A stretch of 39,880 nucleotides of DNA from Cytophagaceae bacterium (lineage in GTDB: Bacteria; Bacteroidota; Bacteroidia; Cytophagales; Cytophagaceae): the NCBI GenBank assembly GCA_019746425.1, contig JAIERY010000450.1, forward strand, positions 1 through 39,880, given 5' to 3'. Positions 18,333 to 35,466 of this stretch are shown here, piece after piece. The notes under the pieces are model-generated. The model saw only the letters and a list, made by a program, of their open reading frames with translations, did not search any database and was not told the origin of the DNA. Each line of letters begins with the position of its first letter. Positions within the stretch are counted from its first letter, which is position 1. A program made the position numbers and the translations under genes.

Positions 18333-21300
18333 ATGAAAAAATTTCTGCTTAAAGCCTTAGATTGTCAACCGGAAGAACTGGGTTCTGTGGGTTTGTTGCT
18401 TGCAATCTCATTTGCAATAGGGATTTACATAGTAACATTTGACGTTGCTACCAGTACCCTCTTCATCAATAATTGGGGACAAAAACACATTTCCGAAGGC
18501 TTTACCTTTGCTGGAGTTCTAGGGATGTTTGCTGCTTACGTTTTCGTAACACTGCAGAAGAGAATTGCATTTATCAATCTTGTCAGAATTGCATTTTTCC
18601 TGAGTCTTGTATATGTATTTACTTTGAGTATTATGCTTGATTCAAGCAAAGACAAGAATATCATATACCTTGCCTTTGCTTCTTTAGGTCCTTTAAATGC
18701 AATCAGTCTTTTAAGTTTTTATGGTATTGTGACACGTGCCTTTGACGTAAAGAACCAAAAACGTTTGACAGGGACAGTGGATCAGGGGCAAATGTTTGCA
18801 ACGTCTATTGCATTCTTTACCATTCCGGTAATGCAAACATACATTAGCTTTTTCAAAAGCGATGACGAACATTTTCTTTTTGTAAGTGTCGGCGGATTAG
18901 TAATCTCTTTGATATTACTTAATTTATATTTTGCAAGATTTAAAACCAAAGAATTAATATCAAGCTCAAAAGTTAAAAAAGAGGCGACGGCAAAATTTAC
19001 GGAGATTGTTAAAAATCCTTATATCCGTTTGTTATCATTGCTCTTCTTGTTGTCGGTTGTTGCAACTTTTTTCGTCGAGTACTCTTTCCTTTCCGTAACC
19101 GCAGCAAAATATAAAACAGAGCAAAATGGTTTAGCAACTTTTCTTGGGCTTTATGGAGGGTTACTTACAGTCTTTAGTTTAGTGCTGCAGATATTTTTTG
19201 GGGAGAAAATCATTACAGATTATGGTATAAAAATAGCTTTATTAATCCTTCCCATTCTACTTGCTGGAATTACAGCCTTATCGGCTTTAGTTGGACAGGT
19301 AATGGGATATGATTTATTAACCCAAGGTATTGATGCGATTTATTTTTTCGCTCTTATTGCATTGACTAAATTTTTTCTTCAATCCTCTAAGGAATCTTTT
19401 GAAGAACCAATCTTTAAAACATTTTTCCTTCCGGTAGACAGAAACATCAGACATGATGTGCAGGCAAAAGTGGAAGGAGTGTTCCAGCAGTTTTCCGTGT
19501 TCATTGCGGGAGGACTACTTACGCTGCTAGGATTTTTACAGTTCTTTCAACTTATTCATTTTACATATCTTTTATTCTTCATTTTCGTCGGATATGCTTA
19601 TGTAGTATTGAAACTTCATTATGAGTATCAGGAAACATTAAAGAAAACCCTTGCCACGCAAAAGGGTCAGGATACCAAAGATGTGAAAACGGCCTTCTCC
19701 GTAGCAGAAACTTTAAACGATGAGCTTAAAACAGAGAATGAAGAAAGAGTTATTTATTCTCTGAAACTGATGGAGAAAATTGAGCCTGTAATGCTGGAGT
19801 CTGTGCTGTTAAATTTTTCAGGCAACAGAAATCCGGAAATAAGAAAATATGTGCTGGGGCGTATCAATGATTTGAAAATTCATGCCGCATTAAATTCAGT
19901 GAAAAAGATTTCAGAGGAGGATGATTCTCCTGTAATAAAAACGCTTGCCCAGCAGGCTGTACAGTATTTAAAGGAAACAGAAAATATACCTCTCTCTGGC
20001 CCAAGGCTGGCGCAGTTAGTGAAGTCTAGAAATAAGCAGGAAAGAGAAAATGCCGCCAAGGCATTGGGTAGAACCAACGGAGATGATGAGTCGACATTGC
20101 ATCTATTGCTTCTCATGAGAGATGTGGATCCTGATGTGAGAATGAGCGCTATTCTTTCCGTAGGCAAATCAGGTAATGCAGAGCTCTGGCCATTGCTGAT
20201 AGAGCAGCTATCCTCATCCATTTTTGGAAACGCGGCAGCAGCAGTTGTCGCTTCATTCGGAGAAAAAGTAATGCCTTCCCTTGAAGCCGCTTTCCACAAA
20301 ACAGGGCAGACAGAACAAACGCAATTAAGAATTATCCAGATATACGGACGTATCGGCGGAACCAAGGCCATTGAATTATTATGGGCCAAAATTGATTTCC
20401 CCAATAAAAAAATCAGGAGCCAGATATTCCTTTCATTAAGCAACTGTGAATTTAAAGTAGACAATGAAAAGCTGGTAAAAATCAAGCAGAGTCTTGAGAC
20501 TGCCATTGGTAATGCAGCATGGAATGTGGCTGCTTTGTCGGAAATAGGAGACGATGAGACCAGAGGGCCTATCAGAGAAGCATTGAAAGAAGAGTATGAG
20601 CATGACAGAGATTTAATCTTCCTGCTGCTTTCCTTTATGTATGATACAAAGTCTATACGACTGGTGAAAGAAAACCTGGATAGCGGTACCGCTGAAGGAA
20701 CCTTGTATGGGATCGAACTTCTCGATGTGTTCCTGGAAGATGATATTCAGCCATTATTATTTCCATTGCTGGAAGATATATCTCAGGAAGAAAGAACAGA
20801 ACGTTTGCAGACCCACTTTCCAAGAGAGGTGCTGGATTCTACCCAGGTATTGATCCATATTATCAACAGGGATTATAATTATGTAAACAGGTGGACAAAA
20901 GCCTGTGCGATATTTTCGCTGGCGGTAACTCCTGATTATAAAGTAACAGACGATTTAATTGCTAATCTTTTCAATCTGGACCCTCTTCTGAGGGAAACTT
21001 CTGCCTGGGTGATTCATTACCTGGACAGGAAGATTTATCATGAGGCAACCCAGAGACTGATCTCTGCTGTTAAAAAAGAACTGGATGAAAAAATTGCCAC
21101 GTCCGGAAAGCAAATTGAGCTTAGAATAGAAAGAATTATAAGGCTGAAGCAGACACGTGGATTTACGAAAGTGCCAGGCGCTATTCTTGCTGACCTCGAA
21201 GAGACTATAGAAGTAGAAGAATACAAAAAAGGCCAGACTCTGATATCCAAAGGAGATAATGGCAATTGTCCTATTTTTGTGGTGGCCGAAGGAGAAATAG

Positions 21301-21554
21301 GGCTTTTTGATAATAACGAACTTATTTCATCCATGAAAGAAAAAGAACTGGTTGGTGAGAAAATCATTCTGGACTCCGATGTCAATACCTTCTCTGTGAT
21401 AGCAGTGGAAGATTCAAAGGTATACCGCATTGAAAAAGTGAAATTTTTTGAATTAATGTCTAATAATTATGAACTGGCCAAAGAATTTATCCATGTAATT
21501 GCTTCAGACTGGTCAAAAGTGGAAGAAAATGAAGAAGAAGTGGTAAATTCTTAA
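18333..21554 (+). CDS. Nucleotide-translocase (NTT/Npt1)-like transporter fused to HEAT repeats and a cNMP-binding-like domain
   Basis: A 1073-residue fusion. Residues 1-430 are a polytopic membrane domain of about 12 helices resembling the ATP/ADP translocase (NTT, MFS-like) family, with FDVATSTLFINNWG near 36 and DQGQMFATSIAFFTIPV near 150. Residues about 455-930 are HEAT-type helical repeats (for example DPDVRMSAILSVGKSGNAE). Residues about 945-1065 are a CRP-type beta-roll (KGQTLISKGDNGNCPIFVVA). In that domain the phosphate-binding cassette keeps GE but reads NTFSVIA where binders have R-S/T-A, so cyclic-nucleotide binding is doubtful. Such NTT-HEAT fusions exist in free-living bacteria; their substrate is not established here. 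It heads a six-gene co-directional group, 58 bases before the TIR gene, with no terminator between. Confidence 0.85.
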   Translation: MKKFLLKALDCQPEELGSVGLLLAISFAIGIYIVTFDVATSTLFINNWGQKHISEGFTFAGVLGMFAAYVFVTLQKRIAFINLVRIAFFLSLVYVFTLSIMLDSSKDKNIIYLAFASLGPLNAISLLSFYGIVTRAFDVKNQKRLTGTVDQGQMFATSIAFFTIPVMQTYISFFKSDDEHFLFVSVGGLVISLILLNLYFARFKTKELISSSKVKKEATAKFTEIVKNPYIRLLSLLFLLSVVATFFVEYSFLSVTAAKYKTEQNGLATFLGLYGGLLTVFSLVLQIFFGEKIITDYGIKIALLILPILLAGITALSALVGQVMGYDLLTQGIDAIYFFALIALTKFFLQSSKESFEEPIFKTFFLPVDRNIRHDVQAKVEGVFQQFSVFIAGGLLTLLGFLQFFQLIHFTYLLFFIFVGYAYVVLKLHYEYQETLKKTLATQKGQDTKDVKTAFSVAETLNDELKTENEERVIYSLKLMEKIEPVMLESVLLNFSGNRNPEIRKYVLGRINDLKIHAALNSVKKISEEDDSPVIKTLAQQAVQYLKETENIPLSGPRLAQLVKSRNKQERENAAKALGRTNGDDESTLHLLLLMRDVDPDVRMSAILSVGKSGNAELWPLLIEQLSSSIFGNAAAAVVASFGEKVMPSLEAAFHKTGQTEQTQLRIIQIYGRIGGTKAIELLWAKIDFPNKKIRSQIFLSLSNCEFKVDNEKLVKIKQSLETAIGNAAWNVAALSEIGDDETRGPIREALKEEYEHDRDLIFLLLSFMYDTKSIRLVKENLDSGTAEGTLYGIELLDVFLEDDIQPLLFPLLEDISQEERTERLQTHFPREVLDSTQVLIHIINRDYNYVNRWTKACAIFSLAVTPDYKVTDDLIANLFNLDPLLRETSAWVIHYLDRKIYHEATQRLISAVKKELDEKIATSGKQIELRIERIIRLKQTRGFTKVPGAILADLEETIEVEEYKKGQTLISKGDNGNCPIFVVAEGEIGLFDNNELISSMKEKELVGEKIILDSDVNTFSVIAVEDSKVYRIEKVKFFELMSNNYELAKEFIHVIASDWSKVEENEEEVVNS

Positions 21555-21588
21555 CAGTCTTATTAAGTATAAATTAAAAAACAATTGG

Positions 21589-21596
21589 TAATTTTG
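21589..21596 (+). promoter_or_regulatory. Possible internal promoter -7 element before the TIR gene
   Basis: TAATTTTG is an exact TAnnTTTG match 16 bases before the TIR start codon. No TTG is found at the expected -33 distance, so it is a half-match that could give separate control of the TIR/STAND pair. Confidence 0.35.
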
Positions 21597-21612
21597 CGTT
21601 CCCGTTAAGCTA

Positions 21613-23100
21613 ATGCAGTTCGAATACGACATATTTATTAGTTATTCTAAAAAAGATAACCTCCCCTTGCCCCAAAACACAAATAAGGGCTGGGTATCCA
21701 GTTTTCATAAATTTTTAGAAACAAGACTTACTCAGATATTAGGCGAGAAGCCCAGATTTCTTCATTATGCCAATGAAGAAAAACCGGTAGCTTCTGAACT
21801 GAAAAAAGCCTGTGTATTGATCTCTGTAGTTTCTCCTCAGTATGTAAGGCAAAGCGACAGTATCGAAGATATCGAAGTATTTTATACCGAAGCAGAGAAA
21901 AACGGAACATTGAAAATCGGAGAAAAGGAAAGAATATTTAAAGTGGTTAAGTTTCCTGTCGCCGTAGAGCAGCAGCCTTCCAGGATAAGACCTTTGCTTG
22001 GGTACGACATGTTTGAGACAGATCTTATCACAGGAGATTTTAAAGAAATCAATAATTTTTTCCTTCCGGAAGCAGAGAAAAATTTCTGGATGAAGCTGGA
22101 TGATCTTGCTCATGATATCTATGATATTCTGAAGCAGGTAAAAATTGAAAGAGAGCCTAAGCAGAAACAGGAACCTGATGCTGTTTACCTGGCAGAAACC
22201 GGATATGATCTTTTGCTGGAAAGAGACCTGATCAAAAGAGAGCTTCAGAGACATGGTTATCGTGTGCTTCCTGATCATACATTGCCAAGCAATGTGCGTG
22301 AAATGGAAGCAGTGATCAAAAGAGATTTAAGTGAATGCAAATTATCTATACATCTTATCGGTGATTCTTACGGAGAAGTTCCGGAAGGACCTGATAAATC
22401 CATTGTAGACATCCAGAACCAGATTGCGGCAGAGCACTGCAGTTATGCAAGCGCTGTTCCGGGTGAAAGGTCTTTTGACTTTAACAGGCTGATCTGGGTT
22501 TCGCCAGCGGTGAAGCTTACGGATGAAAAGCAGAAAATATTTATTGAGAACCTGAAAAGGGATGCTGAAAAATTAAGCGGGGCAGAAGTAGTGCAGACTC
22601 CTCTCGAAGATCTCAAGAATATTATCAGATATGAATTAATTGATAATGCCGATAAGCCCCTGACAGTAGCAGATACTGCTTCTTCTACAGGTTTGCCTAT
22701 AGTGTATATAGTTTTCGATCAATCGGATATGGCTGCAGGCAATGAGTTGATGGAGATCATCAAAGCGAAAGGCAATGAAGTGCTTATTCCTGTATTTAAA
22801 GGAGATCTGCTTCAGGTAAGAAATCAGCATTTTGATAACCTGAGAAAATGTGATGTGGCCATGATTTATTATGGCAGAATCAATCAGCAGTGGGTACAGA
22901 TGAAAGTGCTTGATTTATTAAAAGCACCTGGATTGGGCAGGACGAAAGGCGAGTTAACCAAAGTTATATTTACAGAAAAAAATCATAAGCTCGATGCAAA
23001 GAAATTAGGCACTCAGGGTATTTCCATTATTGAAAATAAGGATGGCATGCATCTTTCAATAGAACCATTTATGGCAAAAATAAATAATAAAGTAAGATGA
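21613..23100 (+). CDS. TIR-domain protein with two further TIR/DUF4062-like segments
   Basis: A 495-residue cytosolic protein. Residues 1-175 form a TIR-type domain (YDIFISYSKKDN at 5-16; LISVVSPQYVRQSDSIEDIE at 69-88). The putative NADase glutamate would lie among E85, D86 and E88, but alignment by eye is ambiguous. Residues about 188-345 begin AVYLAETGYDLLLERDLIKR and continue through SIHLIGDSYGEVPEG; this matches the DUF4062-like stress-type module. Residues about 360-490 (LPIVYIVFDQSDMAAGNELM, then CDVAMIYYGRINQQWVQMK) form a second TIR-like module. TIR proteins in bacteria degrade NAD or make signalling nucleotides in immune systems. The stop overlaps the STAND start by 4 bases (ATGA), implying coupled translation and probably a working pair. 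Confidence 0.88.
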   Translation: MQFEYDIFISYSKKDNLPLPQNTNKGWVSSFHKFLETRLTQILGEKPRFLHYANEEKPVASELKKACVLISVVSPQYVRQSDSIEDIEVFYTEAEKNGTLKIGEKERIFKVVKFPVAVEQQPSRIRPLLGYDMFETDLITGDFKEINNFFLPEAEKNFWMKLDDLAHDIYDILKQVKIEREPKQKQEPDAVYLAETGYDLLLERDLIKRELQRHGYRVLPDHTLPSNVREMEAVIKRDLSECKLSIHLIGDSYGEVPEGPDKSIVDIQNQIAAEHCSYASAVPGERSFDFNRLIWVSPAVKLTDEKQKIFIENLKRDAEKLSGAEVVQTPLEDLKNIIRYELIDNADKPLTVADTASSTGLPIVYIVFDQSDMAAGNELMEIIKAKGNEVLIPVFKGDLLQVRNQHFDNLRKCDVAMIYYGRINQQWVQMKVLDLLKAPGLGRTKGELTKVIFTEKNHKLDAKKLGTQGISIIENKDGMHLSIEPFMAKINNKVR

Positions 23101-26100
23101 GCAGCGGTACAATAACAGATGTATTACAGGACGAATCCGAAAGGGTAAAAGTAAGGCATAATCCTTTCCCGGGATTAAGACCTTTCGGTATTGACGAGAG
23201 TCATTTGTTCTTCGGCCGTGAAGGACAAAGCGACGAAGTTCTGATGAAGATGAATCAGAATAAATTCGTCGCAGTTATCGGTGCATCCGGTAGCGGTAAG
23301 TCTTCATTTTTATATTGTGGCGTTATCCCTATATTATATGGTGGTTTTCTTACACAATCCGGCGCTAACTGGAACGTGGTAGTAACCCGTCCGGGCGGTG
23401 GCCCTATTGATAATCTTGCAGAGTCTTTATTAAAGAGCAATGTAGATTATGTTATTGCAGAAGGAGAAGAAAAGCAGGTAAAGAAAACCATTACTTCTAC
23501 TTTATTAAGAGGTTCTTCTCTTGGCCTGGTAGAAGCAATTGAGCAATTAAAGAGCAGTCAGAATCAGAACATATTAATATTAGTCGATCAGTTTGAAGAA
23601 TTGTTCCGTTTCAAGAAAAGTGAAGAAGGAAGCGGTACATCCAACGAGTCTCTGGCTTTTGTGAACCTTCTGCTGGAAGCAGTAAGAAGTGACGCTTCTA
23701 TATATGTTGCCATTACCATGAGATCTGACTTTATCGGTGAGTGCGCGCAGTTTCCTGAACTTACCAAGCTGATCAACGATAGCCACTACCTTATTCCTCA
23801 GATGACGAGGGAACAGAAGAGGGCAGCCATTGCTGGTCCGGTAGCGGTAGGAGGAGCAGCTGTTGCTCCGCGATTGGTTCAGCAGCTTTTGAATGACCTG
23901 GGTGATAACCCCGATCAGCTTCCTATTCTTCAACACGCCTTGATGCGTACCTGGAATTTCTGGGAGCAGAACCATGAAGAGGGAGAAGTATTAGACTTAC
24001 ATCATTACGAATCTATAGGAGGAATGAAGGAAGCTCTATCGCAGCACGCGAATGAAGCTTTTGAAGAACTTACTCCAAGACAAAAAGAGATTGCGGAATT
24101 TCTGTTCAAGGCATTGACAGAAAAAGGCGGAGACAATCATGGTATACGTCGTCCGACAAGATTAGGCACTATTGCAGCTATTGCCAATGCTCCTGAAGAG
24201 GAAGTGAAGGCAGTGATAGAAAGATTCAGAGCTCCCGGAAGATCTTTATTAATGCCTCCTATAGGAGTACCTCTCCATGCCAATACGATGATCGACATTT
24301 CTCACGAAAGCTTGATGCGTATCTGGGTGAGATTAAAAGTATGGGTGGAAGAAGAAGGTGAAGCGGTTGATATGTACCAAAGGCTTTCTGAAGCTGCTGC
24401 GATGTATCAGCAGGGAAAAACCGGTTTGTGGAGACCACCCGATCTGCAGCTTGCCTTGAACTGGAAAGACAAACACAAGCCGTCATTGGTTTGGGCATCA
24501 AGATATAATCCTGCCTTCGAGAGAACTATGGTGTTCCTTGAAACAAGTAAGCAGGCTTTTGAGACAGAGCAGAAGATCAAGGAAATGCTTCAGCGAAGAA
24601 TGCTGAAGAGAACCAGAATTGTGGCGATCATCCTTGGTACGGCGGCGGTTATTTCCATTGGTTTTTTGATTTTCGCGATTGTGCAGAAAATTGAGGCGGA
24701 TGATTTGCGTATTAAAGCTGAAGCCAATGAAAAGTCAGCAATTTTAGAAAAGCAACATGCTGAGGACGAGAAGAAAAAAGCAGTTGCAGCAAAAAAGGAG
24801 GCAGATGATCAGAAGTTAATTGCTATCGCTAATGCTCATGAAGCAGAAAGACAAACTATTATAGCCCGAAAAAATGCCGATGAAGCTAAAAAGCAAAGTG
24901 AAATAGCAAAGAAAAACGCAGATGAAGCAAAGCGACAGGCTGAAATAGCTAAAGAGAATGAAAAAAAGGCTACAGAAGCAAAAACATTAGCCGATCAAAA
25001 TGCTGACAAAGCTTACAGATTGCGTTTGCTTTCTATCGCTCAGTCTATGGCGGTGAAATCGCTGCAGATAGAAGATACTATGAGAAAGAGCGTTATTGCC
25101 ATGCAGGCATACCGCTTCCATAAAGACAACGGCGGTAATGAGCATAACCACGACGTATATGATGGCTTGTATTACGCACTGAAAACACTTAAGCCGAATA
25201 ATTACAATAGTCTAAAAGGTCATACCAACGCTGTGAGGTCTATTGTGTATTCTCCCGATGCTAAGTTTGTATACACAGGAGGCAGCGATGGTAAAGTAAT
25301 TAAGTGGAATCTTGAAAATGGTACCAGTGAATTACTTTTACAGAATGGATTTGTGAACAGAATGCTTGCGCTTAGCCCAGACAACAGCTGGCTTGCGGTT
25401 GGTGGTGACAGATCTACCATTCAGCTGATCAATCTTGCCAATCCAACAGAAGCACCTAAAGTATTAAGCGGCCATAAAGGACATATCGCTTCATTGATAT
25501 TTACCGGTAACGGATTGGTATCTGCAGGAACAGGTGACAGCAGCATATTACGATGGGATGTGAATGAAGATAAATCTGCATTGGTGGCAAAAATATCTGC
25601 TAAGATCAAATGTGTAGCAGTTGCTCCCGACAATCAGACGCTTGCAGTGGGAGATGACAAAGGCCAGGTAATATTGATCGAGAATGGTAAAGAGACAGTG
25701 TTGTTTGAGAAAAAAGGAAGAACAATTCATGCCGTGACATTTGGTAAAAACGGAAAATGGATTGCTGCCGGCGATGACATCGGAACGATCCGGATCTGGA
25801 ATGCAGAAGAGAAAAAACTAATAGGCACGCTTAGCGGTCAGAAAGCAAGGATCAATGATATTAAGTTCAGCAACGATGCCAGATTCCTGGCCACTGCAAG
25901 CTTTGACGCTAGTGCGAGGATCTATAATATGAATAACCTCAACGAGGCTCCGCTTGAATTAAAAGATCACAATTCGTGGGCATGGTCGCTGGCATTCAGT
26001 CCTGACGGAAATAAACTTCTGGTAGGTTGTGTAGACAAACTGATAAGAATCTGGCCTACTCATATTGACTTTATGGCAAATGAAATTTGCGATAAAGTCA

Positions 26101-26213
26101 ATAGAAATATGACGGGAAGAGAATGGGAGCGTTATGTGGCACCACTTGATGATATCAAATATCAGAGAACCTGCCCGCATCTGCCAAGCAGCGAGGCTGT
26201 AAAAGAAGAATAG
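23097..26213 (+). CDS. nSTAND NTPase with transmembrane helix, coiled coil and WD40 propeller
   Basis: A 1038-residue signalling NTPase. NPFPGLRPFGIDESHLFFGR (22-41) is the hallmark of the nSTAND1 family. Walker A GASGSGKSS (62-70) and Walker B ILILVDQFEELFRF (159-172) follow, then a winged-helix/helical region to about 500. A single transmembrane helix lies at about 507-529, preceded by RRMLKRTR. Residues 530-640 are a coiled coil containing a repeated 14-residue unit (KKNADEAKKQSEIA / KKNADEAKRQAEIA). Seven WD40 repeats (about 704-995) form one propeller, ending in a short tail. The positive charges before the helix predict the NTPase inside and the propeller outside the cytoplasm. STAND proteins oligomerise on ligand sensing. 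It is translationally coupled to the TIR gene. Confidence 0.93.
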   Translation: MSSGTITDVLQDESERVKVRHNPFPGLRPFGIDESHLFFGREGQSDEVLMKMNQNKFVAVIGASGSGKSSFLYCGVIPILYGGFLTQSGANWNVVVTRPGGGPIDNLAESLLKSNVDYVIAEGEEKQVKKTITSTLLRGSSLGLVEAIEQLKSSQNQNILILVDQFEELFRFKKSEEGSGTSNESLAFVNLLLEAVRSDASIYVAITMRSDFIGECAQFPELTKLINDSHYLIPQMTREQKRAAIAGPVAVGGAAVAPRLVQQLLNDLGDNPDQLPILQHALMRTWNFWEQNHEEGEVLDLHHYESIGGMKEALSQHANEAFEELTPRQKEIAEFLFKALTEKGGDNHGIRRPTRLGTIAAIANAPEEEVKAVIERFRAPGRSLLMPPIGVPLHANTMIDISHESLMRIWVRLKVWVEEEGEAVDMYQRLSEAAAMYQQGKTGLWRPPDLQLALNWKDKHKPSLVWASRYNPAFERTMVFLETSKQAFETEQKIKEMLQRRMLKRTRIVAIILGTAAVISIGFLIFAIVQKIEADDLRIKAEANEKSAILEKQHAEDEKKKAVAAKKEADDQKLIAIANAHEAERQTIIARKNADEAKKQSEIAKKNADEAKRQAEIAKENEKKATEAKTLADQNADKAYRLRLLSIAQSMAVKSLQIEDTMRKSVIAMQAYRFHKDNGGNEHNHDVYDGLYYALKTLKPNNYNSLKGHTNAVRSIVYSPDAKFVYTGGSDGKVIKWNLENGTSELLLQNGFVNRMLALSPDNSWLAVGGDRSTIQLINLANPTEAPKVLSGHKGHIASLIFTGNGLVSAGTGDSSILRWDVNEDKSALVAKISAKIKCVAVAPDNQTLAVGDDKGQVILIENGKETVLFEKKGRTIHAVTFGKNGKWIAAGDDIGTIRIWNAEEKKLIGTLSGQKARINDIKFSNDARFLATASFDASARIYNMNNLNEAPLELKDHNSWAWSLAFSPDGNKLLVGCVDKLIRIWPTHIDFMANEICDKVNRNMTGREWERYVAPLDDIKYQRTCPHLPSSEAVKEE
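24868..24955 (+). repeat. 42-bp repeat inside the STAND coiled coil
   Basis: Two diverged 42-base units encode the 14-residue heptad pairs KKNADEAKKQSEIA and KKNADEAKRQAEIA. The repeat is in frame, so unit gain or loss would change the coil length without breaking the gene. Confidence 0.6.
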
Positions 26214-26264
26214 TTTTGACCATGATTAAATGATTTTATTGATGAATATGATTTTGTGACAGTA

Positions 26265-27329
26265 ATGAATAATTCGAATTTTAAATTTTTTTTACTTACC
26301 ATTTTACTGGGATTTTTTACTTCAGGTATTTCGGTTAGGGCACAGGACTCTGTCAATGTTTGTACGCAAACATTAAATGATGCGCAGGATGCTTATGATG
26401 CCGGAAAGCTCAGCGGTATTCCTGCCATGCTTGAAGGCTGTCTGAAAGATGGATTTACGAGGGCAGAAAAACTTTCTGCTTTACGGGTGCTGATTCTGAC
26501 TTATCTTTTTCAGGATGAAGATGAACTGGCAGAGCAGACATTGCTCGCACTCTTAAAAGAAGATCCTGAATATAAAGTAAACGAAGCGCTGGATCCAGCC
26601 GAATTTATTTATCTGTACAATACTTACAGAACGCTTCCTGTGGTTTCAATTGGTTTGATAGGCGGAGTCAATCAAAGCAGGATGCATCTGAGCCAGGAAT
26701 TCAGTACTGACAATATAAATAATTCAGAAGTAAAATATTCTCCGGGAATGGGGTATCAGTTTGGAGTAATCGCGGATATACTTCTGTATAAAAATTTTCA
26801 AATCAATACAGCAATACTTTTCTCCGGAAAAAAATATCAGATGGATAGCGAAAAGTTATTTTCCTACACAAACCTGAACCTGATAGAAAATCAGACCTGG
26901 ATGCATTTGCCAGTTACGTTGAAGTACAATTTCGGGAAAAAGAAACTTGTTCCTTTTATTCAGGCCGGAATGTCCCTAGACCTGTTTCTTGCATCAAGCG
27001 GAAATATAAAAAGAACCAGTATCGAAAACGATAACGATGCTTCCGGGCCTTCTGTACAGATGAGCAGTTTGAGAAACAAGCTGAATTATTCAGCTGTGTT
27101 TGGAGCCGGCGCCAGATACAAAATCGGGTATGGCTATGCGATATTAGATGTGAGGTACAACCTTGGGTTGCGAAACATTGTCAATGTAAAAAACAGATAT
27201 TCCAATAATGAGCTTGTCTATTATTATGGATATATAGACAGCGACAGCAAACTACATAATATCATGATTTCTGTAGGTTATCTTAAATCACTTTATAAGC
27301 CTAAAAAGATTAAGGTTAAAAATGCGTAA
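26265..27329 (+). CDS. Outer-membrane beta-barrel protein with periplasmic helical N-domain
   Basis: About 354 residues from ATG 26265 (a GTG at 26256 would add three residues). A signal peptide (to about residue 28, ending VRAQ) is followed by a TPR-like helical segment (about 32-125, with VNVCTQTLNDAQDAYDAGKL and SALRVLILTYLFQDEDE). From the PVVSIGLIGGVNQSRM segment on, alternating beta strands suit an outer-membrane barrel of PorT/OmpA-like size (YSPGMGYQFGVIADILLYK, PVTLKYNFGKKKLVPFIQAG, MISVGYLKSLYKP). No enzymatic motif is seen. It follows the STAND gene by 51 bases and overlaps the lipoprotein gene by 8 bases, so it belongs to the same transcription unit. Confidence 0.85.
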   Translation: MNNSNFKFFLLTILLGFFTSGISVRAQDSVNVCTQTLNDAQDAYDAGKLSGIPAMLEGCLKDGFTRAEKLSALRVLILTYLFQDEDELAEQTLLALLKEDPEYKVNEALDPAEFIYLYNTYRTLPVVSIGLIGGVNQSRMHLSQEFSTDNINNSEVKYSPGMGYQFGVIADILLYKNFQINTAILFSGKKYQMDSEKLFSYTNLNLIENQTWMHLPVTLKYNFGKKKLVPFIQAGMSLDLFLASSGNIKRTSIENDNDASGPSVQMSSLRNKLNYSAVFGAGARYKIGYGYAILDVRYNLGLRNIVNVKNRYSNNELVYYYGYIDSDSKLHNIMISVGYLKSLYKPKKIKVKNA

Positions 27330-28548
27330 ATTTTATTTTTTCATATTGATTCCCTTTGTTTCGCTTACACTTTTGAGTTGTAAAAAAGAAGAGATGAATC
27401 TTTCTAAAGGATTTATCAAGTATTTTGGAGGTATAGAAGCAGATGATGCTTCTGACATGCAGCCTACAGGTGACGGAGGATATATTATTATAGGTACAAC
27501 AAGCAGTTATGGAATTGGCGGACAAGATATTTATTTAATAAAGACTGATTCAAGAGGAAACGAAGAGTGGCATAAAACATATGGCGATAGTCTGGATGAC
27601 CAGGGCAGTTCTGTGCAGCAAACTTCTGACGGAGGCTTTATTTTAGCAGGCACATACAGATACATTACAGGAGTCGATTCCAACAAGACAGATTTTTATG
27701 TGATTAAAACAGATGGGGCCGGAAGTGTGCAATGGTCAAAAATCATTGGAATTTCCGGTAAGAATGAGGAAGGTGTGTGTGCCAGGCAAACAGCAGACGG
27801 AGGATATATTGTGGTGGGCAATACTGTCACCGCCGGTAACGAAGATATTTTCATCGTAAAATTATTTGCCAATGGTAATCAGGATTGGACGCAGATATTG
27901 CCTATCGATCCGTTAAACCCGAACGTTAAGGATTTTGCTTCCAATGTAGTTCAGAGAGGTGATGGAGGGTACTTAATAAGCACCAGTGCAATAGGTTTTG
28001 CAACAGGAGCTTCTCCCAGATGGATCAATACAAATTCGCTGGGTTTTCAAAACAATGCTCCAGAAAAGACAACTTACTTAGAAAACACGATGAGTACTGG
28101 GATGGAAATAACTCACTCTCTTATGGAAGCTGCATATTATTTTACCGGACAAACCAGCACAGATGATATTTATGTGATGAAAGTGGGTGATGCCATATCG
28201 CTTAATAAAATATGGTTCAAAACTTATGGAGGATCGGGAGTCGATGCTGCCCGTTCGATTCAGGCAACTGAAGACGGTGGTTTTGTGGTCTTAGGTTCAA
28301 CTACCTCTTTTGGGGCGGGGGGGAGAGATATTTACCTTTTTAAAGTGGATGCAAGCGGGGATAATGTAGAATGGTCAAAAACTTTCGGTGGTGCCGGTCT
28401 GGATGTGGGAAAAGTGGTCAGAAAAACCTCTGATGGCGGTTATGCTATCCTTGGAACATTGGAATTCGGCGATGATCCTTCCGCAAAGGATAATATCATC
28501 TGCCTTATAAAAGTGGACAGTAAAGGTGAAATCACCAATGTCGAGTAA
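27322..28548 (+). CDS. Lipoprotein with tandem propeller-like repeats
   Basis: A 408-residue secreted lipoprotein. The signal peptide ends in a lipobox LLSC (cysteine 20). The mature part consists of about six repeats of the form DGGYIIIGTTSSYGIGGQDI, then YLIKTDSRGNEEWHKTYG, each with a TxDGGY/F core, a GTTSSxGxGGxDxY strand and a W-KTxG ending. Such repeats are predicted to form a beta-propeller. Attachment by lipid to the periplasmic or outer leaflet is likely. The start overlaps the end of the barrel gene (ATGCGTAA), suggesting coupled production. Function is unknown; it may bind a ligand or the barrel. Confidence 0.85.
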   Translation: MRKFYFFILIPFVSLTLLSCKKEEMNLSKGFIKYFGGIEADDASDMQPTGDGGYIIIGTTSSYGIGGQDIYLIKTDSRGNEEWHKTYGDSLDDQGSSVQQTSDGGFILAGTYRYITGVDSNKTDFYVIKTDGAGSVQWSKIIGISGKNEEGVCARQTADGGYIVVGNTVTAGNEDIFIVKLFANGNQDWTQILPIDPLNPNVKDFASNVVQRGDGGYLISTSAIGFATGASPRWINTNSLGFQNNAPEKTTYLENTMSTGMEITHSLMEAAYYFTGQTSTDDIYVMKVGDAISLNKIWFKTYGGSGVDAARSIQATEDGGFVVLGSTTSFGAGGRDIYLFKVDASGDNVEWSKTFGGAGLDVGKVVRKTSDGGYAILGTLEFGDDPSAKDNIICLIKVDSKGEITNVE

Positions 28549-28667
28549 TTAAGAGGATATAATTAATCAAAAATATAACTATTTTAATAAAAAAGGTTAC
28601 TAATTTGGATTTTTCCGGATTAATAGGCTTTCTGGTCCCTATTCGAGCATATAAAAACTTTAATTTT

Positions 28668-31600
28668 ATGGTAAAACTTTACCGCATCCTACTTTTTGCA
28701 CTAATAACTTTAGTAGGTCTTACCTCAGGTTATACACAAAATACTGTAGTAACACCTGCAGCCGCACAAACAAATATGTGCGTTGGAGCAGCTGGCTATA
28801 CTACTTTGGGAATGATCATCATTGCAGAGACTAATTTTGCAAACTTTAATGCTGGAAATAATCAGACATATATTATGTCCACTCCAGCTAATTTTGAATT
28901 TAATACCGGCGCCACGCCCGCTATTACTGCTAATGGTGGTGGGGTATCAGGTATCAGTGCAATAACAGTATCAGCAACTACTATATCATTTCAGTTTAAT
29001 GTATCAGGAGGTTCAACCGGAGCAGGTCCTTTAGATTCAATCAGAATTACGGGAGTACAAGTAAGAGCAATTACGGCCGCATCTACGGGTAGTATAGCCA
29101 GATCAGGCGGAACGGCTATCATGGCAGGGAATGCAGCGGGAGATGGACAGGTTCATTGCAGTTTAACCAGCGTTCAGAATCCGAATATTACTGGTAACCC
29201 CGGAAATCAATCAGTATGTACCGGTGGCAATACAAGCTTTACAGTGACTGCAACAGGAACAGGATTAACTTATTTTTGGGAACGATTTAATGGTGCAACA
29301 TGGAATGATCCTCCTGGAGCAATATACAGCGGACAAGGTACAAATACCCTTACGTTGACGGGCGTAGTTATTGCACAGAATGGATATTTATTCAGATGTA
29401 CGGTTACCGGGGCTTGCGGCCCTGTGACGTCAAACCAGGCTACGCTTACCGTAACAGACCCTCCGATCATTACAGTTCAGCCACCTAACAGGAATACATG
29501 TTCTGCAACTACATTCACAATTACTGCGACAGGCGCTACAACGTATCAATGGGAAGTAGATCCAAACACAGGAACATTTGCGAATGTGCCTGCTGCTGCT
29601 CCGTATTCTAATACGACTACCAATACTTTAGGTATTTCCAGCATAGCTGGTCTTAACAATTATAAATACCGTTGTGTAGTTTCCAACGGGGTATGTTCTG
29701 TAACTTCTGCTCAGGGGACATTAACTACAGCATCGGTTCCCAATGTTACTTCGCCTCCGCCTGACAGAACTATATGTTCAGGGACAGGGACCACATTTCC
29801 TGTTACAGCTACAGGGGCTACAACTTATCAATGGGAAGTAGATCCAAACACTGGAACATTTGCGAATGTGCCTGCTGCAGCTCCATATTCTAATACGACT
29901 ACAGCCACTTTAAATATTTCCAATGTGGCTGGGCTAAATAATTACAAATACCGCTGCGTGATTACCAACGCTTGCGGATCTGTAAATTCTGCCCAGGGAA
30001 CATTAACAGTAAGTGCAGGCCCTGCTATTACAACACAACCAGTTAATACTACTACTTGCGTTAACAATAATCCAACCTTCACAGTGGTAGCTTCTGGCGT
30101 CACTACCTATTCATGGGAGCGTGACAGGAATGATGGCAATGGGTTCGGTGCGGCTCCGGGTGGATTTTATAGCGGACAAACTACAAATACTCTCACAGTC
30201 AATAGTGCGCAGACTTCCCAGAACGGATATTTATTCCGTGTAATTCTTACTAACTCATGCGGTACAACAACTTCAAATACAGCAACACTAACAGTATACT
30301 CTACAGCAACGGCTAACTTCTTTGGTTTAAATACAAGTTATTGCAGAAATGCACCCTTCGATACACTTGAAGGATTCCCGGTAGGAGGGACTTTTTCAGG
30401 ACCAGGTATTACCAATCTTCCCGGTAGCTTTGCCAGGTTTGATGCGTTTGCCGCCGGGTCAGGATCTAAAACTATTACATATACATTGGGTTGCGGTATC
30501 ACCAAAAATACAACGGTTAACGATACGACTAATATTGATTATACAAGTCCTGCCAATCCAACGCCGTCATATTCTGTATCCAGTCCTTCAGTTGACCTTG
30601 TAGTGGAAGCAGTTCCGCCTGCGGGTTCATTACCCGGAACCTTTTCCGGTACAGGAGTAAGCGGCACTAAATTTTATCCTAACATTGCAGGGGTGGGTGG
30701 TCCATATCCTGTATCATTTACCTTCACTAATCCTAGCGGATGTGTGAGTAAAGTAATTAAACCTATTACGGTTACTTCTCCAGGTTTGGGGATACCTCCT
30801 TTGAGAAATGGCGGAACTCCTTTTTGCCAGGGAGCGGCTTTAGTAAACCTGAATCCTAATACCGTAGATGGAGGAGCTCCTTTCTTTTTCCCTCCATTCT
30901 ATGCTTTCGCTGGGTATTCCGGAACAGGTATTACCCAGACCGGATCTACCACCTATCAATTCAATCCTAGTACACCAGGATCTTATGTAATAAATTATCT
31001 GACATCGCAATATGATTTCTGGACAGGTGAAACAATTATTCAGATTTATGCGAGTCAGACAGTGACGGTCAATTCACAAACGGCTATAGATTTTAATTTA
31101 CCTTCAGTTGCCTGTAACATTGCGGGACCTATTGATATGAATCCTTTCCCGGGACTATTATCCGGATCACCGGGTACTTCCATGAGTATTGTAAGCCCTG
31201 CCTCGCCTCCTGCCGGAATGTTATCAGGTGCAAACAATACTATATTCAATCCTTCTGCGGCTGGGCCAACCCAGACAACTTTTACCGTAAGATATACTTA
31301 TGTAAATGCTTCCGGATGTACTACTATTCTTGATAAAAACATTACGGTCTTTCCAAAACCTCCATTGCCTACCTTACAGCCTCCTGATGGTTTCTGGGGA
31401 GCGCAATCGGAGCAGTTTTGCTATGGATCGCCGAAAAAATTCATAGGTGCATTATATGATCCGGCTATTGATTATAACTGGTATAATAATGCTTCTCTGG
31501 CGCCTGCTACAAAAATTTCCGATTTCTATTATATGCCGCCGCAACCGGCGAATAATAATCCCGGCACTTATAATTATTATGTGACTCAAACAGTTTCTGG

Positions 31601-34600
31601 TTGCACCAGTGATCCTTTGACGGTAACAGTGCAGATCAATGACAGGGGAGTGGCAAATGCGGGGCCTGACCAGGTGATTTGTGAGGGAAGTACCGTAACG
31701 CTTGCAGGTTCCAGTACCCGTGCATTTGCTGGTACATCTTTACCGGCTGCATGGTCTTCGCCGACCGGCGGTGGGTTTACACCTAACGTAAATACATTGA
31801 ATGCTGTGTATACTCCAACAGCTACAGATATTGCGGATCAATTTGTTAATCTGACTTTAACTTCTAATGATCCCGACGGTGCAGGCCCTTGCCTGGCGCC
31901 GACTGACGTAGTAAGAATCAATATCAATAAAGCTCCCTTGGCCAATGCCGGCGGCGATGTAACATATTGTTCTGATAACCTCATCTTATTACAAGGAAGC
32001 TATAGCGGATCAGCTAACTCTATTACCTGGACTGGCGGCGCAGGAATTATTATGTCTCCAGGTTCCAACGTAAGTCAATACATTCCTACAACTGTAGAAA
32101 AAATCGGAAGTACAGTTACTTTTACAGCAACCACTAATGATCCGGATGGCGTAGGCGGCCCTTGTGTTGCCGTTTCTGATCAGGTAAGCATTACTATTAA
32201 TCAGCAGGCAGCAGTTAATCCTGGGCCATTGCAAATAATTTGCGAAGGCAACATGGCAACTCTTAATGGGGCAAGCACACTTGCCTTCTCTGGAGCCGCA
32301 GTGCCTGGCACATGGTTTTCTCCTACCGGTGGCACATTTACTCCAAATGTGAATACATTAAATGCTGTGTACACACCAACTGCTACAGATATCAGCAATC
32401 AGTTTGTGGATCTTGTTTTAACATCAGATGATCCTGACGGGGTTGGGGGTCCATGTACAGCGGTTAGCAACCAGGTAAGGATTAATATTAATAGAGCCGC
32501 TTCTGTATTTGCCGGAAATGATATGACTTATTGTTCTGACAATACCATTCTTTTAGCCGGAAATTATTCAGGAACGGCCAGTTCATTGACATGGTCAGGT
32601 GGTACAGGAAGCATACTTCTTCCATCTTCGACCGTGACCCAATACAACGCAACAAACCTAGAAAAAACCGGAGGTATTATTACATTCACTGCTACTACCA
32701 ATGACCCGGATGGCGCTGGACCGTGTGTGGCTGTATCAGATCAGGTAAGTGTTACTATTAACCAGGAAGCGACAGTAAATGCCGGAATTGATCAGGCCGT
32801 TTGCAGATCGACAGGTACCACTCTCACAAACCTTAATGGAACAAGTCAATATAAATATACATCATCTCCCCTGGGGTCAACATGGTCGGGAGGAGTAGGC
32901 GTATTTGGAAATACATCTTCTTTAACATCCAGCTATACACCTGATGTTTCAGAAATACCTGCGGATGGTACATATGGTAATCCTGTAAAATTATATCTCA
33001 CTACCAATGATCCTGACGGAGCCGGACCTTGTGCTATAGTAATGGATTCGGTAATTGTTACGGTAAATCCGCTTCCACGTATTGATTCGGTAATTGTGAT
33101 TGATACAGCATTCTGTACCTCGGATAATGCTTTCCAGATTACTGTGGTAATGCAGTCAAGCTATATCAAGCAATCGGATGCCTTTACAGATTTGCCTGGA
33201 GGTAATCAGGGGATAAGCGGTAGTTTCTTCGTACCTAATATTGCTACGATCGGCGCACACACTATACGATATACATTTACGGATGCCAATGGTTGCAGCA
33301 ATTTCCGCGATACATTGATTAACGTATATGGGGTACCGAAGCCGAAGTTCACCATTACCGACTATTGTGCAACTAGTCCTACTCTGTTTGACGGATCGAC
33401 TTCAGATATATCTTTTGATCCTGCAAGTACTATTGCCAATTACAAATGGAACTTTGGGGATTTCAATACAGAAAGCGATACTTCGCTGCTCGTAGCAGAT
33501 TCTTATGTGTACAGCAAGACACTCAATCCAAGCGCCAAGCAGGCTTATACGCCAAGACTTACCGTAATTACAGATAAAGGCTGTGTAGGAGTTAAAGATT
33601 CAACGGTCACTATCGGAAATATTCCCGCAACAGATTTCAAATGGAGCAAAATATGCCCGGTAGATACCTCTGCATTTGTTGACCTTTCCGCATTCCCTTC
33701 ACAGGAGGTTTCCCAATACACCTGGAATTTTGCCGATGGAACAATCATCAATGGCCCTGGTATGATTGCAGGTCCTGCGCCAAACAATGCCTTGAAAAAT
33801 CCAAAGCATAAAATGGCCAATGGAACGGGAGCATATAATGTCACCTACACTATTTCTACCGTACGCGGATGTGATAGCTCTATGACAAAGAGAGTGGATA
33901 TACTCGATCAATACAGACCCACTCCAAGCGATCCATATGCAACGAACTTTGCAACAGACAATGCCTTTTGGGCAGTGGATGGTAAAAACAATAGCTGGCA
34001 GTGGGGAGCTTCTTCCAAGCCAATTATTAACAGCAGCGGAAGAAAGGTTTGGGTTACTGATACGAATAGCGTTTATAATGTGAACGAAGATTCACACTTA
34101 AATGGTCCGTGTCTGAATTTTGATACTCTGAGCAAGCCTATGATATCGATGAAAATCTGGTCAGCTACTCAGAACCAATTTGCCGGCGCTGTATTACAGT
34201 CTTCTACTGACGGAGGTACAACATGGAGCGTAGTTGGAAAGCTTAACGACGGAATTAACTGGTATGATAACTTCGGTATTCAGGGAAATCCTGGCGGACA
34301 AACAATCAATCAGTTTGGCTGGACGGGAGTTTATAGCGACTGGAGAATTGCGAGGATCAGTTTAAGTTCTTTTGCGACTAAACCGGCTGTAAGATTCAGG
34401 GTAGCCTTTGGTTCAGGAGGTGATTCATTAAATCTGAAAGACGGATTTGCAATAGATAGTGTTTGGGTTGGAGAAAGAAACAAACTGATATTGCTTGAAA
34501 ACTTCACCAACAGTAATTCTGTAGCTGCTGCGGCCAACGATGCCAATATGAATAACCTGGTAAATAATTTAAGACCAAATGATGTGGTAGCCATACATTA

Positions 34601-35414
34601 TCATACAAGTTTCCCTGCTCCTGATCCGATGAATCAGCGAAACACAGCTGATCCTAGTGCAAGAGTGTTGCAGTATGGAGTAGGCGCAGTGCCTTTTAAA
34701 GCGCTGGATGGAAATTATGACTTCGGTCCTGCGTTAGATACTGTTGACATCGATAGAAGATCACTTGAGACATCGAAATTTAAAATCAAGCTGCAAACCA
34801 ATATTGCAGGAAACACTGTTGATGCAAGAATTAAGTTCTTCGCAACGGATAGTGTTAAAAACGACTTCGTGGTGCATGTGGCAGTGATAGAACGTTATGT
34901 GACTGCTCCTGGTAACTACGAGTGGGTACTAACGAGAATGCTTCCTGATGCGGCTGGTACCTTCTATTCATATAACTATGGAAAAGGTGATTCAACTTTC
35001 CTGAATCACCAGTGGACCTTCCTGCCAGGCGATGTTTATAATGCAGCAGAACTTGGAGTAGTTGTCTTTATACAGGATGTAAATACAAAAGAAGTTTACC
35101 AGACTGCATACCAGTTCGGTTCAGGAGGTGTTCCAACCAGTCTGAAATACAATCTTCTGGCAGGCAAAGAGTTGATTGTATATCCTAACCCTGCCATGGA
35201 TGTAGCTCATGTGGTATTCTCTGATCCTTCTGCTAAAGATTATGCATATCTTGTGTACGATGAATTAGGTAAAATAGTAGCTCAAGGTGTTATCGAAAAT
35301 GGAGCACATGGATTTACATTGAATACATCCAATCTTGCAGGTGGCATGTATGTGATAAGGGTAGGTAATGAAGCAGATGGATTTGCATACAAAAAGCTCA
35401 CGGTAAATCACTAA
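28668..35414 (+). CDS. Giant T9SS-exported surface protein with Ig-like and PKD domains
   Basis: About 2248 residues from ATG 28668 (MVKLYRILLFALITLVGLTS, a clear signal peptide). The TTG at 28605 would add 21 residues ahead of it and is rejected. The protein is a chain of Ig-like beta-sandwich modules (WER/WEV...YKYRC type, then NAG-D--CEG...NDPDGAGPC type). Two PKD-like modules (YKWNFGDFNTES, YTWNFADGTI) and a jelly-roll-like region with STDGGTTW follow. Next is an Omp28/thioredoxin-like region (LILLENFTNSNSVAAAANDA) without the CxxC pair. A T9SS sorting domain ends it (VYPNPAMDV...GGMYVIRVGNEADGFAYKKL). It would be exported across the outer membrane and anchored or released. It ends in a strong terminator. 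A 119-base gap separates it from the lipoprotein gene, so co-transcription is likely but not certain. Confidence 0.92.
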   Translation: MVKLYRILLFALITLVGLTSGYTQNTVVTPAAAQTNMCVGAAGYTTLGMIIIAETNFANFNAGNNQTYIMSTPANFEFNTGATPAITANGGGVSGISAITVSATTISFQFNVSGGSTGAGPLDSIRITGVQVRAITAASTGSIARSGGTAIMAGNAAGDGQVHCSLTSVQNPNITGNPGNQSVCTGGNTSFTVTATGTGLTYFWERFNGATWNDPPGAIYSGQGTNTLTLTGVVIAQNGYLFRCTVTGACGPVTSNQATLTVTDPPIITVQPPNRNTCSATTFTITATGATTYQWEVDPNTGTFANVPAAAPYSNTTTNTLGISSIAGLNNYKYRCVVSNGVCSVTSAQGTLTTASVPNVTSPPPDRTICSGTGTTFPVTATGATTYQWEVDPNTGTFANVPAAAPYSNTTTATLNISNVAGLNNYKYRCVITNACGSVNSAQGTLTVSAGPAITTQPVNTTTCVNNNPTFTVVASGVTTYSWERDRNDGNGFGAAPGGFYSGQTTNTLTVNSAQTSQNGYLFRVILTNSCGTTTSNTATLTVYSTATANFFGLNTSYCRNAPFDTLEGFPVGGTFSGPGITNLPGSFARFDAFAAGSGSKTITYTLGCGITKNTTVNDTTNIDYTSPANPTPSYSVSSPSVDLVVEAVPPAGSLPGTFSGTGVSGTKFYPNIAGVGGPYPVSFTFTNPSGCVSKVIKPITVTSPGLGIPPLRNGGTPFCQGAALVNLNPNTVDGGAPFFFPPFYAFAGYSGTGITQTGSTTYQFNPSTPGSYVINYLTSQYDFWTGETIIQIYASQTVTVNSQTAIDFNLPSVACNIAGPIDMNPFPGLLSGSPGTSMSIVSPASPPAGMLSGANNTIFNPSAAGPTQTTFTVRYTYVNASGCTTILDKNITVFPKPPLPTLQPPDGFWGAQSEQFCYGSPKKFIGALYDPAIDYNWYNNASLAPATKISDFYYMPPQPANNNPGTYNYYVTQTVSGCTSDPLTVTVQINDRGVANAGPDQVICEGSTVTLAGSSTRAFAGTSLPAAWSSPTGGGFTPNVNTLNAVYTPTATDIADQFVNLTLTSNDPDGAGPCLAPTDVVRININKAPLANAGGDVTYCSDNLILLQGSYSGSANSITWTGGAGIIMSPGSNVSQYIPTTVEKIGSTVTFTATTNDPDGVGGPCVAVSDQVSITINQQAAVNPGPLQIICEGNMATLNGASTLAFSGAAVPGTWFSPTGGTFTPNVNTLNAVYTPTATDISNQFVDLVLTSDDPDGVGGPCTAVSNQVRININRAASVFAGNDMTYCSDNTILLAGNYSGTASSLTWSGGTGSILLPSSTVTQYNATNLEKTGGIITFTATTNDPDGAGPCVAVSDQVSVTINQEATVNAGIDQAVCRSTGTTLTNLNGTSQYKYTSSPLGSTWSGGVGVFGNTSSLTSSYTPDVSEIPADGTYGNPVKLYLTTNDPDGAGPCAIVMDSVIVTVNPLPRIDSVIVIDTAFCTSDNAFQITVVMQSSYIKQSDAFTDLPGGNQGISGSFFVPNIATIGAHTIRYTFTDANGCSNFRDTLINVYGVPKPKFTITDYCATSPTLFDGSTSDISFDPASTIANYKWNFGDFNTESDTSLLVADSYVYSKTLNPSAKQAYTPRLTVITDKGCVGVKDSTVTIGNIPATDFKWSKICPVDTSAFVDLSAFPSQEVSQYTWNFADGTIINGPGMIAGPAPNNALKNPKHKMANGTGAYNVTYTISTVRGCDSSMTKRVDILDQYRPTPSDPYATNFATDNAFWAVDGKNNSWQWGASSKPIINSSGRKVWVTDTNSVYNVNEDSHLNGPCLNFDTLSKPMISMKIWSATQNQFAGAVLQSSTDGGTTWSVVGKLNDGINWYDNFGIQGNPGGQTINQFGWTGVYSDWRIARISLSSFATKPAVRFRVAFGSGGDSLNLKDGFAIDSVWVGERNKLILLENFTNSNSVAAAANDANMNNLVNNLRPNDVVAIHYHTSFPAPDPMNQRNTADPSARVLQYGVGAVPFKALDGNYDFGPALDTVDIDRRSLETSKFKIKLQTNIAGNTVDARIKFFATDSVKNDFVVHVAVIERYVTAPGNYEWVLTRMLPDAAGTFYSYNYGKGDSTFLNHQWTFLPGDVYNAAELGVVVFIQDVNTKEVYQTAYQFGSGGVPTSLKYNLLAGKELIVYPNPAMDVAHVVFSDPSAKDYAYLVYDELGKIVAQGVIENGAHGFTLNTSNLAGGMYVIRVGNEADGFAYKKLTVNH
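29535..29902 (+). repeat. Near-identical Ig-module repeat (282-bp period)
   Basis: The block starting at 29535 (TATCAATGGGAAGTAGATCC and on) recurs at 29817 with only a few silent changes over about 85 bases. It encodes TTYQWEVDPNTGTFANVPAA in both copies. The period is 282 bases (94 codons). Confidence 0.8.
31653..32774 (+). repeat. Two-domain repeat, period 561 bp (ABAB)
   Basis: Two consecutive 187-codon units each hold an A domain (CEG...FTPNVNTLNAVYTPTATDI...) and a B domain (TYCSDN...SVTFTATTNDPDG-type). The landmark AATACATT occurs at 31791 and 32352. A third, more diverged A-type domain follows at about 32775-33070. Confidence 0.75.
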
Positions 35415-35436
35415 GCTTATAAAAAGCTTATTCAAT

Positions 35437-35466
35437 AAAAAATCCCCCGGAGACGGGGGATTTTTT
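35437..35466. terminator. Bidirectional terminator between convergent genes
   Basis: The stem AAAAAATCCCCCG / CGGGGGATTTTTT has a GAGA loop, with A and T runs on both sides so that it can stop transcripts from either strand. The leftward permease gene ends inside its T-run (stop at 35465-35467). Confidence 0.92.

Follow-up and report, generated by a model that had tools for sequence, protein, structure and literature searches.

A conserved six-gene nSTAND group of Cytophagales with predicted parts from the cytosol to the cell surface

Introduction

What could link a homologue of nucleotide translocases, a TIR protein and a STAND ATPase to an outer-membrane barrel, a lipoprotein and a giant surface protein? 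These six products are encoded side by side in the window analysed here, a stretch of 39,880 nucleotides from a Cytophagaceae bacterium. Most discussion of bacterial STAND proteins treats them as cytosolic sensors of invaders, and a group reaching the cell surface raises the question of whether it serves in immunity, adhesion, nucleotide uptake or signalling.

Organization of the group

All six genes lie on the + strand. Gene 1 (18333..21554) encodes a membrane protein of 1073 aa with NTT, HEAT and cNBD parts (Pfam and a profile match), and gene 2 (21613..23100) a TIR/DUF4062/TIR-like protein of 495 aa (Pfam and predicted structure). Gene 3 (23097..26213; Pfam) encodes an nSTAND1 NTPase followed by a transmembrane segment, a coiled coil and a WD40 region (1038 aa). 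Gene 4 encodes an outer-membrane protein (Pfam OMP_b-brl_2) and runs over 26265..27329 from an ATG, the ORF listing starting at a GTG at 26256. Gene 5 (27322..28548) encodes a propeller lipoprotein of 408 aa (NCBIfam SBBP/LipL53-like). Gene 6, which encodes a giant T9SS surface protein of 2248 aa (Por_Secre_tail), occupies 28668..35414 from an ATG, with a listed TTG start at 28605.

The successive intergenic gaps are 58, -4, 51, -8 and 119 nucleotides. The group is followed by an intrinsic terminator (35435..35468, + strand), a 15-pair hairpin and then a T run, located between convergent genes. The ORF coordinates and this hairpin bear out the layout proposed by a first-pass annotation made from the letters alone. 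The absence of a terminator within the group, which it had also claimed, agrees with internal terminator-like sites that are weak and near chance level (20 vs. 14.1 +/- 3.8 in shuffled sequences). Its list of six products was recovered by Pfam and NCBIfam, the NTT part through a family profile and the TIR fold through a predicted structure.

Conservation across genomes

With the TIR protein as bait, a homologue was found in 32 of 98 relatives. The order NTT-TIR-STAND-OMP-lipoprotein-giant was present in most of 31 matches, around each of which 20 kb was read. This order is retained down to 25-30% identity (range 25-50%) in about 15 families, with differing flanking genes. A neighbourhood search, suggested earlier as a check on whether the partners stay beside the TIR/STAND pair, confirmed that they do. 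Among 80 further public-genome loci outside the window's genome (Bacteroidota, mostly Cytophagales), and counting only loci with enough flank, the NTT gene was adjacent in 67/67, nSTAND in 71/71, the outer-membrane barrel in 61/65 and the lipoprotein in 56/59, and a large downstream + strand gene taken as the giant was found in 53/54; simple ORF calls were used and a few absences may be artefacts, and many of the 80 loci are from related Cyclobacteriaceae and hence non-independent, the spread over about 15 families being the stronger point. By these sequence comparisons, the six-gene group is a genuine and strongly conserved unit.

We also considered presence in whole genomes, linked or not. 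Of the 342 genomes of the order that were compared, 89 have the nSTAND subfamily, 80 a strong NTT match (E <= 1e-60) and 52 a core TIR. nSTAND accompanies the strong NTT match in 80/80 genomes, and both NTT and nSTAND are present in 52/52 core-TIR genomes, unlinked cases included; the NTT cut-off was set after the list had been seen and the profile was built on cassette members. The corresponding hypergeometric value of about 1e-68 overstates the case, owing to this post hoc cut-off, the cassette-derived profile and the relatedness of the genomes. Within genera, the co-occurrence still tracks gain and loss, as in g59, where nSTAND is missing from the genomes whose NTT match is only weak. In another genus (g40), the NTT gene lies hundreds of kilobases away from TIR-STAND-OMP-lipoprotein.

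Could unrelated genes have stayed together by chance or vertical hitch-hiking? Many loci come from related Cyclobacteriaceae in which the flanking genes recur too, as such hitch-hiking would predict. However, the set persists over about 15 families while its flanks change, it occurs in a re-ordered form in other families (STAND-TBDT-GNAT-NTT, where TBDT denotes a TonB-dependent receptor), and duplicate cassettes were found within one genome. The re-ordered form and the co-occurrence of unlinked genes contradict a chance neighbourhood, and this explanation is extremely improbable.

A predominance of TIR/STAND pairs without the other genes had been named in advance as an observation against the unit. 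In the core family such a predominance was not seen, but there are more distant TIR-STAND pairs that lack the envelope genes. At six loci from several genera (L164-L167, L171, L172), a distinct TIR/DUF4062 gene precedes a tandem pair of nSTAND genes (~1350 aa) and then a gene of 268 aa, with neither NTT nor OMP; this is apparently a separate conserved module. nSTAND relatives were also found on three Cytophagales plasmids. Isolates with public genomes that carry relatives of the group include Chryseolinea serpens, Fulvivirga imtechensis, Reichenbachiella faecimaris and Runella rosea.

A membrane-spanning nSTAND protein

The gene 3 product matches nSTAND1 (E 4.8e-100) and WD40 (E 1e-38) in Pfam. 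Its P-loop (GASGSGKSS) and Walker B region (LVDQFEELF) are intact, and the key positions are invariant in 17 diverse members. A single transmembrane helix is predicted at aa 511-529 (24627..24683, + strand) from a hydrophobic segment and charge bias. All 109 nSTAND homologues have such a strong hydrophobic segment (median start at residue 508), with more Lys/Arg before it than after it. Because this positive-inside bias holds in 109/109 homologues, the protein is predicted, on hydrophobicity and charge, to be single-pass, with a cytosolic NTPase and a periplasmic coiled coil and WD40 propeller (Pfam; aa 691-990, 25167..26066, + strand).

Conservation falls outward along this predicted axis, with medians of 70% for the NTPase, 44% for the coil, 34% for WD40, 42% for the OMP N-terminal domain, 28% for the barrel and 25% for the lipoprotein. 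After removing the NTPase distance, WD40 distances track those of the OMP and the lipoprotein (partial r 0.55-0.68) more closely than those of NTT/HEAT (partial r 0.28-0.31), a correlated divergence that may also stem from shared rate changes.

Outer-membrane and surface components

The OMP of the window has a signal peptide, an N-terminal helical domain and an 8-stranded barrel (model pLDDT 90.6, 8 long strands), and the PDB matches of its model belong to the OmpA/OmpW/OmpX class. In a domain-level HMM comparison, the N-terminal periplasmic domain (aa 26-119; 26340..26621, + strand) on its own matches the N-termini of TBDTs (about residues 7-120, with i-E values as low as 5.5e-18). In other families, these TBDTs adjoin this nSTAND and the NTT-HEAT protein, in the order STAND, TBDT, GNAT (in most), NTT-HEAT and a Reg_prop/Y_Y_Y histidine kinase. 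Because one domain is re-used on two barrel types beside the same nSTAND, we infer that it may dock on the periplasmic WD40 propeller.

An annotated instance of this order, STAND-TBDT-GNAT-NTT-histidine kinase, is found on a Runella rosea plasmid (L249, 13015-31126), surrounded by genes for STAS, an anti-sigma-type ATPase and SpoIIE. On the Persicobacter plasmid pPP2 (L250, 4149-24055), a STAND relative (40% identity) is embedded in a cluster of contractile-injection-system genes.

The lipoprotein has the lipobox LLSC followed by KKEE, and a lipobox pattern was found in 70 of 97 homologues as called. Its co-variation with the barrel is the strongest observed (partial r 0.75). The giant protein contains Ig-like and PKD domains and a C-terminal T9SS type A sorting domain (Por_Secre_tail E 4e-11). 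Pairwise comparison delimited a conserved C-terminal module (aa about 1520-2248; 33225..35411, + strand), which ends at the sorting domain and is common to 9/9 other giants tested, with 27-35% identity over about 750-820 residues (longer in one). A T9SS translocon gene, sprA, is also present in the source genome (2479 bits). By its sorting domain and the T9SS gene of its genome, the giant protein is a predicted T9SS substrate.

The presence of the giant in nearly all loci, its conserved module and the tight co-variation of barrel and lipoprotein would suit a role in adhesion or surface assembly, in which the giant would be a T9SS adhesin held or displayed by the OMP and the lipoprotein, and nSTAND with its coiled-coil stalk would serve as an ATP-driven scaffold instead of transducing a signal. 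Yet other families pair nSTAND and NTT with a TBDT and have no giant at the loci read, and regulatory genes recur beside the set. Moreover, STAND proteins are generally switches. We thus consider a purely adhesive role quite unlikely.

The NTT-HEAT-cNBD protein

In the gene 1 product, the NTT domain covers aa 1-440, the HEAT part about 470-920 and the cNMP-binding-like domain 962-1045 (all within 18333..21554, + strand). Pfam matched HEAT_2 and cNMP_binding, and Pfam TLC gave no match in the NTT part. A family profile of this part matched solved ADP,ATP carriers, namely 9j3n (E 2.5e-25) and the chloroplast 9j3j (E 3e-22), which makes it, in sequence, a homologue of the characterised NTTs (ADP,ATP carrier, TLC family); the match spans only aa about 109-425, leaving the first about 110 residues unaligned and the substrate residues unreadable.

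The HEAT part has the highest median identity within the protein (39.7%) and the cNBD the lowest (24.6%). The cNBD is missing from the NTT-HEAT protein in some families. Its phosphate cassette in the window reads GEKIILDSDVNTFSVIA and lacks the Arg, and no Arg is conserved there across 108 homologues; a role as canonical cAMP sensor was rejected. In two genera (g275, g271), HEAT and cNBD are kept behind an N-terminal membrane domain with no detectable relation to NTT, and profile comparison found no shared NTT origin for these 840-844 aa replacement proteins (hhalign probability 0.2%). Across the proteins compared, HEAT is the constant part. Three cassettes with this swap and a retained HEAT-cNBD (L221, L238, L245) are followed by a gene of ~1064 aa, which in L221 encodes a Reg_prop-SpoIIE protein.

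The same three-domain architecture has been published for free-living bacteria, with functions called unknown (Major, Embley and Williams 2017, PMC5381601). The available text of that paper does not mention a TIR, STAND or outer-membrane linkage, and some of the present cassettes, by contrast, have no cNBD or bear another domain in the place of NTT. The first-pass annotation had presented the full combination as one not known to be described. No description was found among open-licence papers, an absence that is provisional, but the novelty does not extend to the NTT-HEAT-cNBD part.

Might the group serve nucleotide acquisition, with nucleic acids or nucleotides captured at the surface, imported by NTT and regulated by nSTAND? 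NTT homology and the TBDTs of relatives point in this direction. However, the barrel is of the 8-stranded OmpA/OmpX type, which in the model has no obvious pore and was rejected as a nucleotide pore, the NTT domain is swapped for an unrelated membrane domain in some cassettes, and the partial profile match says nothing of the substrate. Such a function appears very unlikely.

The TIR protein and the NAD question

In Pfam, the gene 2 product gives only a weak TIR_2 match (20.6 bits vs. a cut-off of 28), while DUF4062 passes. Its AlphaFold model (pLDDT 82.6) shows three Rossmann-like modules. The best PDB match of this model by Foldseek is the TIR of SNC1, and plant TIRs reach TM 0.60-0.67 on target length. 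A TIR fold is therefore supported by the model. In the alignment to the SNC1 TIR, Asp86 (codon 21868..21870, + strand) takes the place of the Glu that is catalytic in NADase TIRs (C-x-x-E-L). Across 129 homologues, this position is variable (N26 E22 T22 L15 H11 D8). In addition, the third module has a Lys at the equivalent W-x-x-x site.

TIR-less cassettes form a well-supported subclade within the TIR-bearing ones and keep the other five genes, and there is one further loss. By this branching pattern, TIR is an optional component that disappeared at least twice from sets that otherwise persisted. The variable catalytic position and these losses speak against a conserved NADase, and a mode of action based on NAD cleavage by TIR is improbable. 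The earlier proposal, a TIR enzyme acting on nucleotides from the pool handled by the transporter, is not supported, since the Glu is not conserved, TIR is lost in a subclade and the NTT domain is replaceable.

At two loci, a HAMP-SpoIIE phosphatase gene identified by Pfam lies between the NTT and TIR genes (L048, 6436-8388; L053, 8796-10829). Two others (L054, L062) have the same insertion, judged by size and position.

nSTAND1 and TIR are known and common parts of conflict systems (Kaur et al. 2020, 2021; PMC7159879, PMC8195603), and an nSTAND1 NTPase with a propeller and an adjoining TIR gene also occurs there, as far as the available text of these papers goes. The terms 'outer membrane' and 'translocase' are absent from both of these eLife papers, and the available parts of the conflict-system literature describe no outer-membrane linkage of nSTAND1/TIR. 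The present group differs in that its nSTAND protein is predicted to span the membrane with a periplasmic propeller, in its linkage to outer-membrane and T9SS proteins, and in an optional TIR without the conserved Glu.

These likenesses raise the question of an anti-phage or conflict module, in which a phage or competitor at the surface would trigger nSTAND, TIR would deplete NAD or make a nucleotide signal, and NTT would be a second effector. The supported TIR fold and the fastest divergence of the outermost parts fit with it. Nevertheless, the fate of the catalytic Glu and of the TIR gene speaks against it, and PADLOC matched only the cNMP domain of the group, with weak P-loop matches besides. 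None of the phage records searched carries the TIR protein; a plasmid search with the same protein gave two weak partial matches. Finally, the housekeeping neighbours in the window and the recurring Cyclobacteriaceae flanks are unlike a mobile defence island. An immune function has little specific support, and we regard it as unlikely.

A putative trans-envelope signalling device

The reading that we favour, and hold to be fairly probable, is a trans-envelope signal-transduction device leading from the surface across both membranes to a cytosolic, NTP-driven STAND switch. The idea of a surface or periplasmic sensor coupled to the cytosolic side, already put forward in the first-pass annotation, is thus kept and given a STAND switch on the grounds of conservation, topology and the shared domain. 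The giant T9SS protein, the propeller lipoprotein and the 8-stranded barrel would lie together at the cell surface, where a contact or the binding of a ligand would alter the N-terminal helical domain of the barrel. This domain would then dock on the WD40 propeller, which the coiled-coil stalk would hold out into the periplasm. Docking would switch or oligomerise the cytosolic nSTAND NTPase. The NTT-HEAT-cNBD membrane protein, reached via its HEAT scaffold, would be a target of this switch, as would the TIR/DUF4062 protein in sets that have one, with TIR as an adaptor rather than a NADase. What counts against this reading is that TIR and the NTT domain, the innermost parts and those most relevant to an output, are not universal.

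The output is most likely regulatory, because genes for SpoIIE phosphatases, histidine kinases or STAS/anti-sigma partners adjoin the set in relatives; a membrane effect of the NTT domain is less likely. The recurring regulatory partners are HAMP-SpoIIE, Reg_prop-SpoIIE and Reg_prop/Y_Y_Y histidine kinase proteins, plus the STAS, anti-sigma-type and SpoIIE proteins of the Runella plasmid.

FecA-FecR-FecI signalling combines a TonB-dependent receptor, an inner-membrane anti-sigma factor and a sigma factor. It is the closest working counterpart of the putative device, whose logic would be similar with a STAND ATPase replacing the anti-sigma regulator. In both cases, an outer-membrane barrel bears an extra N-terminal periplasmic domain (aa 26-119 in the OMP of the window, the same domain standing on TBDTs), and the inner-membrane partner is single-pass with a cytosolic N-terminus and a periplasmic C-terminal domain (predicted for nSTAND). 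Moreover, the barrel of relatives is a true TonB-dependent receptor. The STN domain and the sigma/anti-sigma features have no counterpart here. In place of an anti-sigma factor, the predicted inner-membrane partner is a WD40-bearing nSTAND ATPase, and Pfam and NCBIfam revealed no FecR anti-sigma or ECF sigma gene in the group of the window. No sigma gene is listed near the Runella plasmid set, which has STAS/anti-sigma-type and SpoIIE genes nearby. Pfam detected no STN, the TBDT of L209 matching Plug and TonB barrel only and the OMP of the window OMP_b-brl_2 only. Finally, the N-terminal domain is helical and the barrel of the window is small and 8-stranded.

Whether this amounts to a new class of transmembrane signalling is, in our estimation, evenly balanced. 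In such a class, an inner-membrane-spanning STAND with an apoptosome-like switch, extending through the periplasm by its stalk-borne WD40 propeller, would receive surface events directly from interchangeable outer-membrane receptors, either a small barrel with a surface adhesin or a TonB-dependent receptor, through one shared docking domain, with NTT-HEAT as the output partner. If true, this would be a new bacterial route for signals across two membranes, coupling STAND to outer-membrane receptors, and would give the widespread NTT-HEAT proteins of unknown function a testable context.

Other genes of the window

Beyond the housekeeping genes, two other neighbours can be mentioned. A MoxR-type AAA ATPase (4415-5404) has a secondary match (54 bits) to bpMoxR, the form named for MoxR-vWA-propeller ternary conflict systems. 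A Fic/DOC family protein with a Fic_N domain is encoded at 12734-13786.
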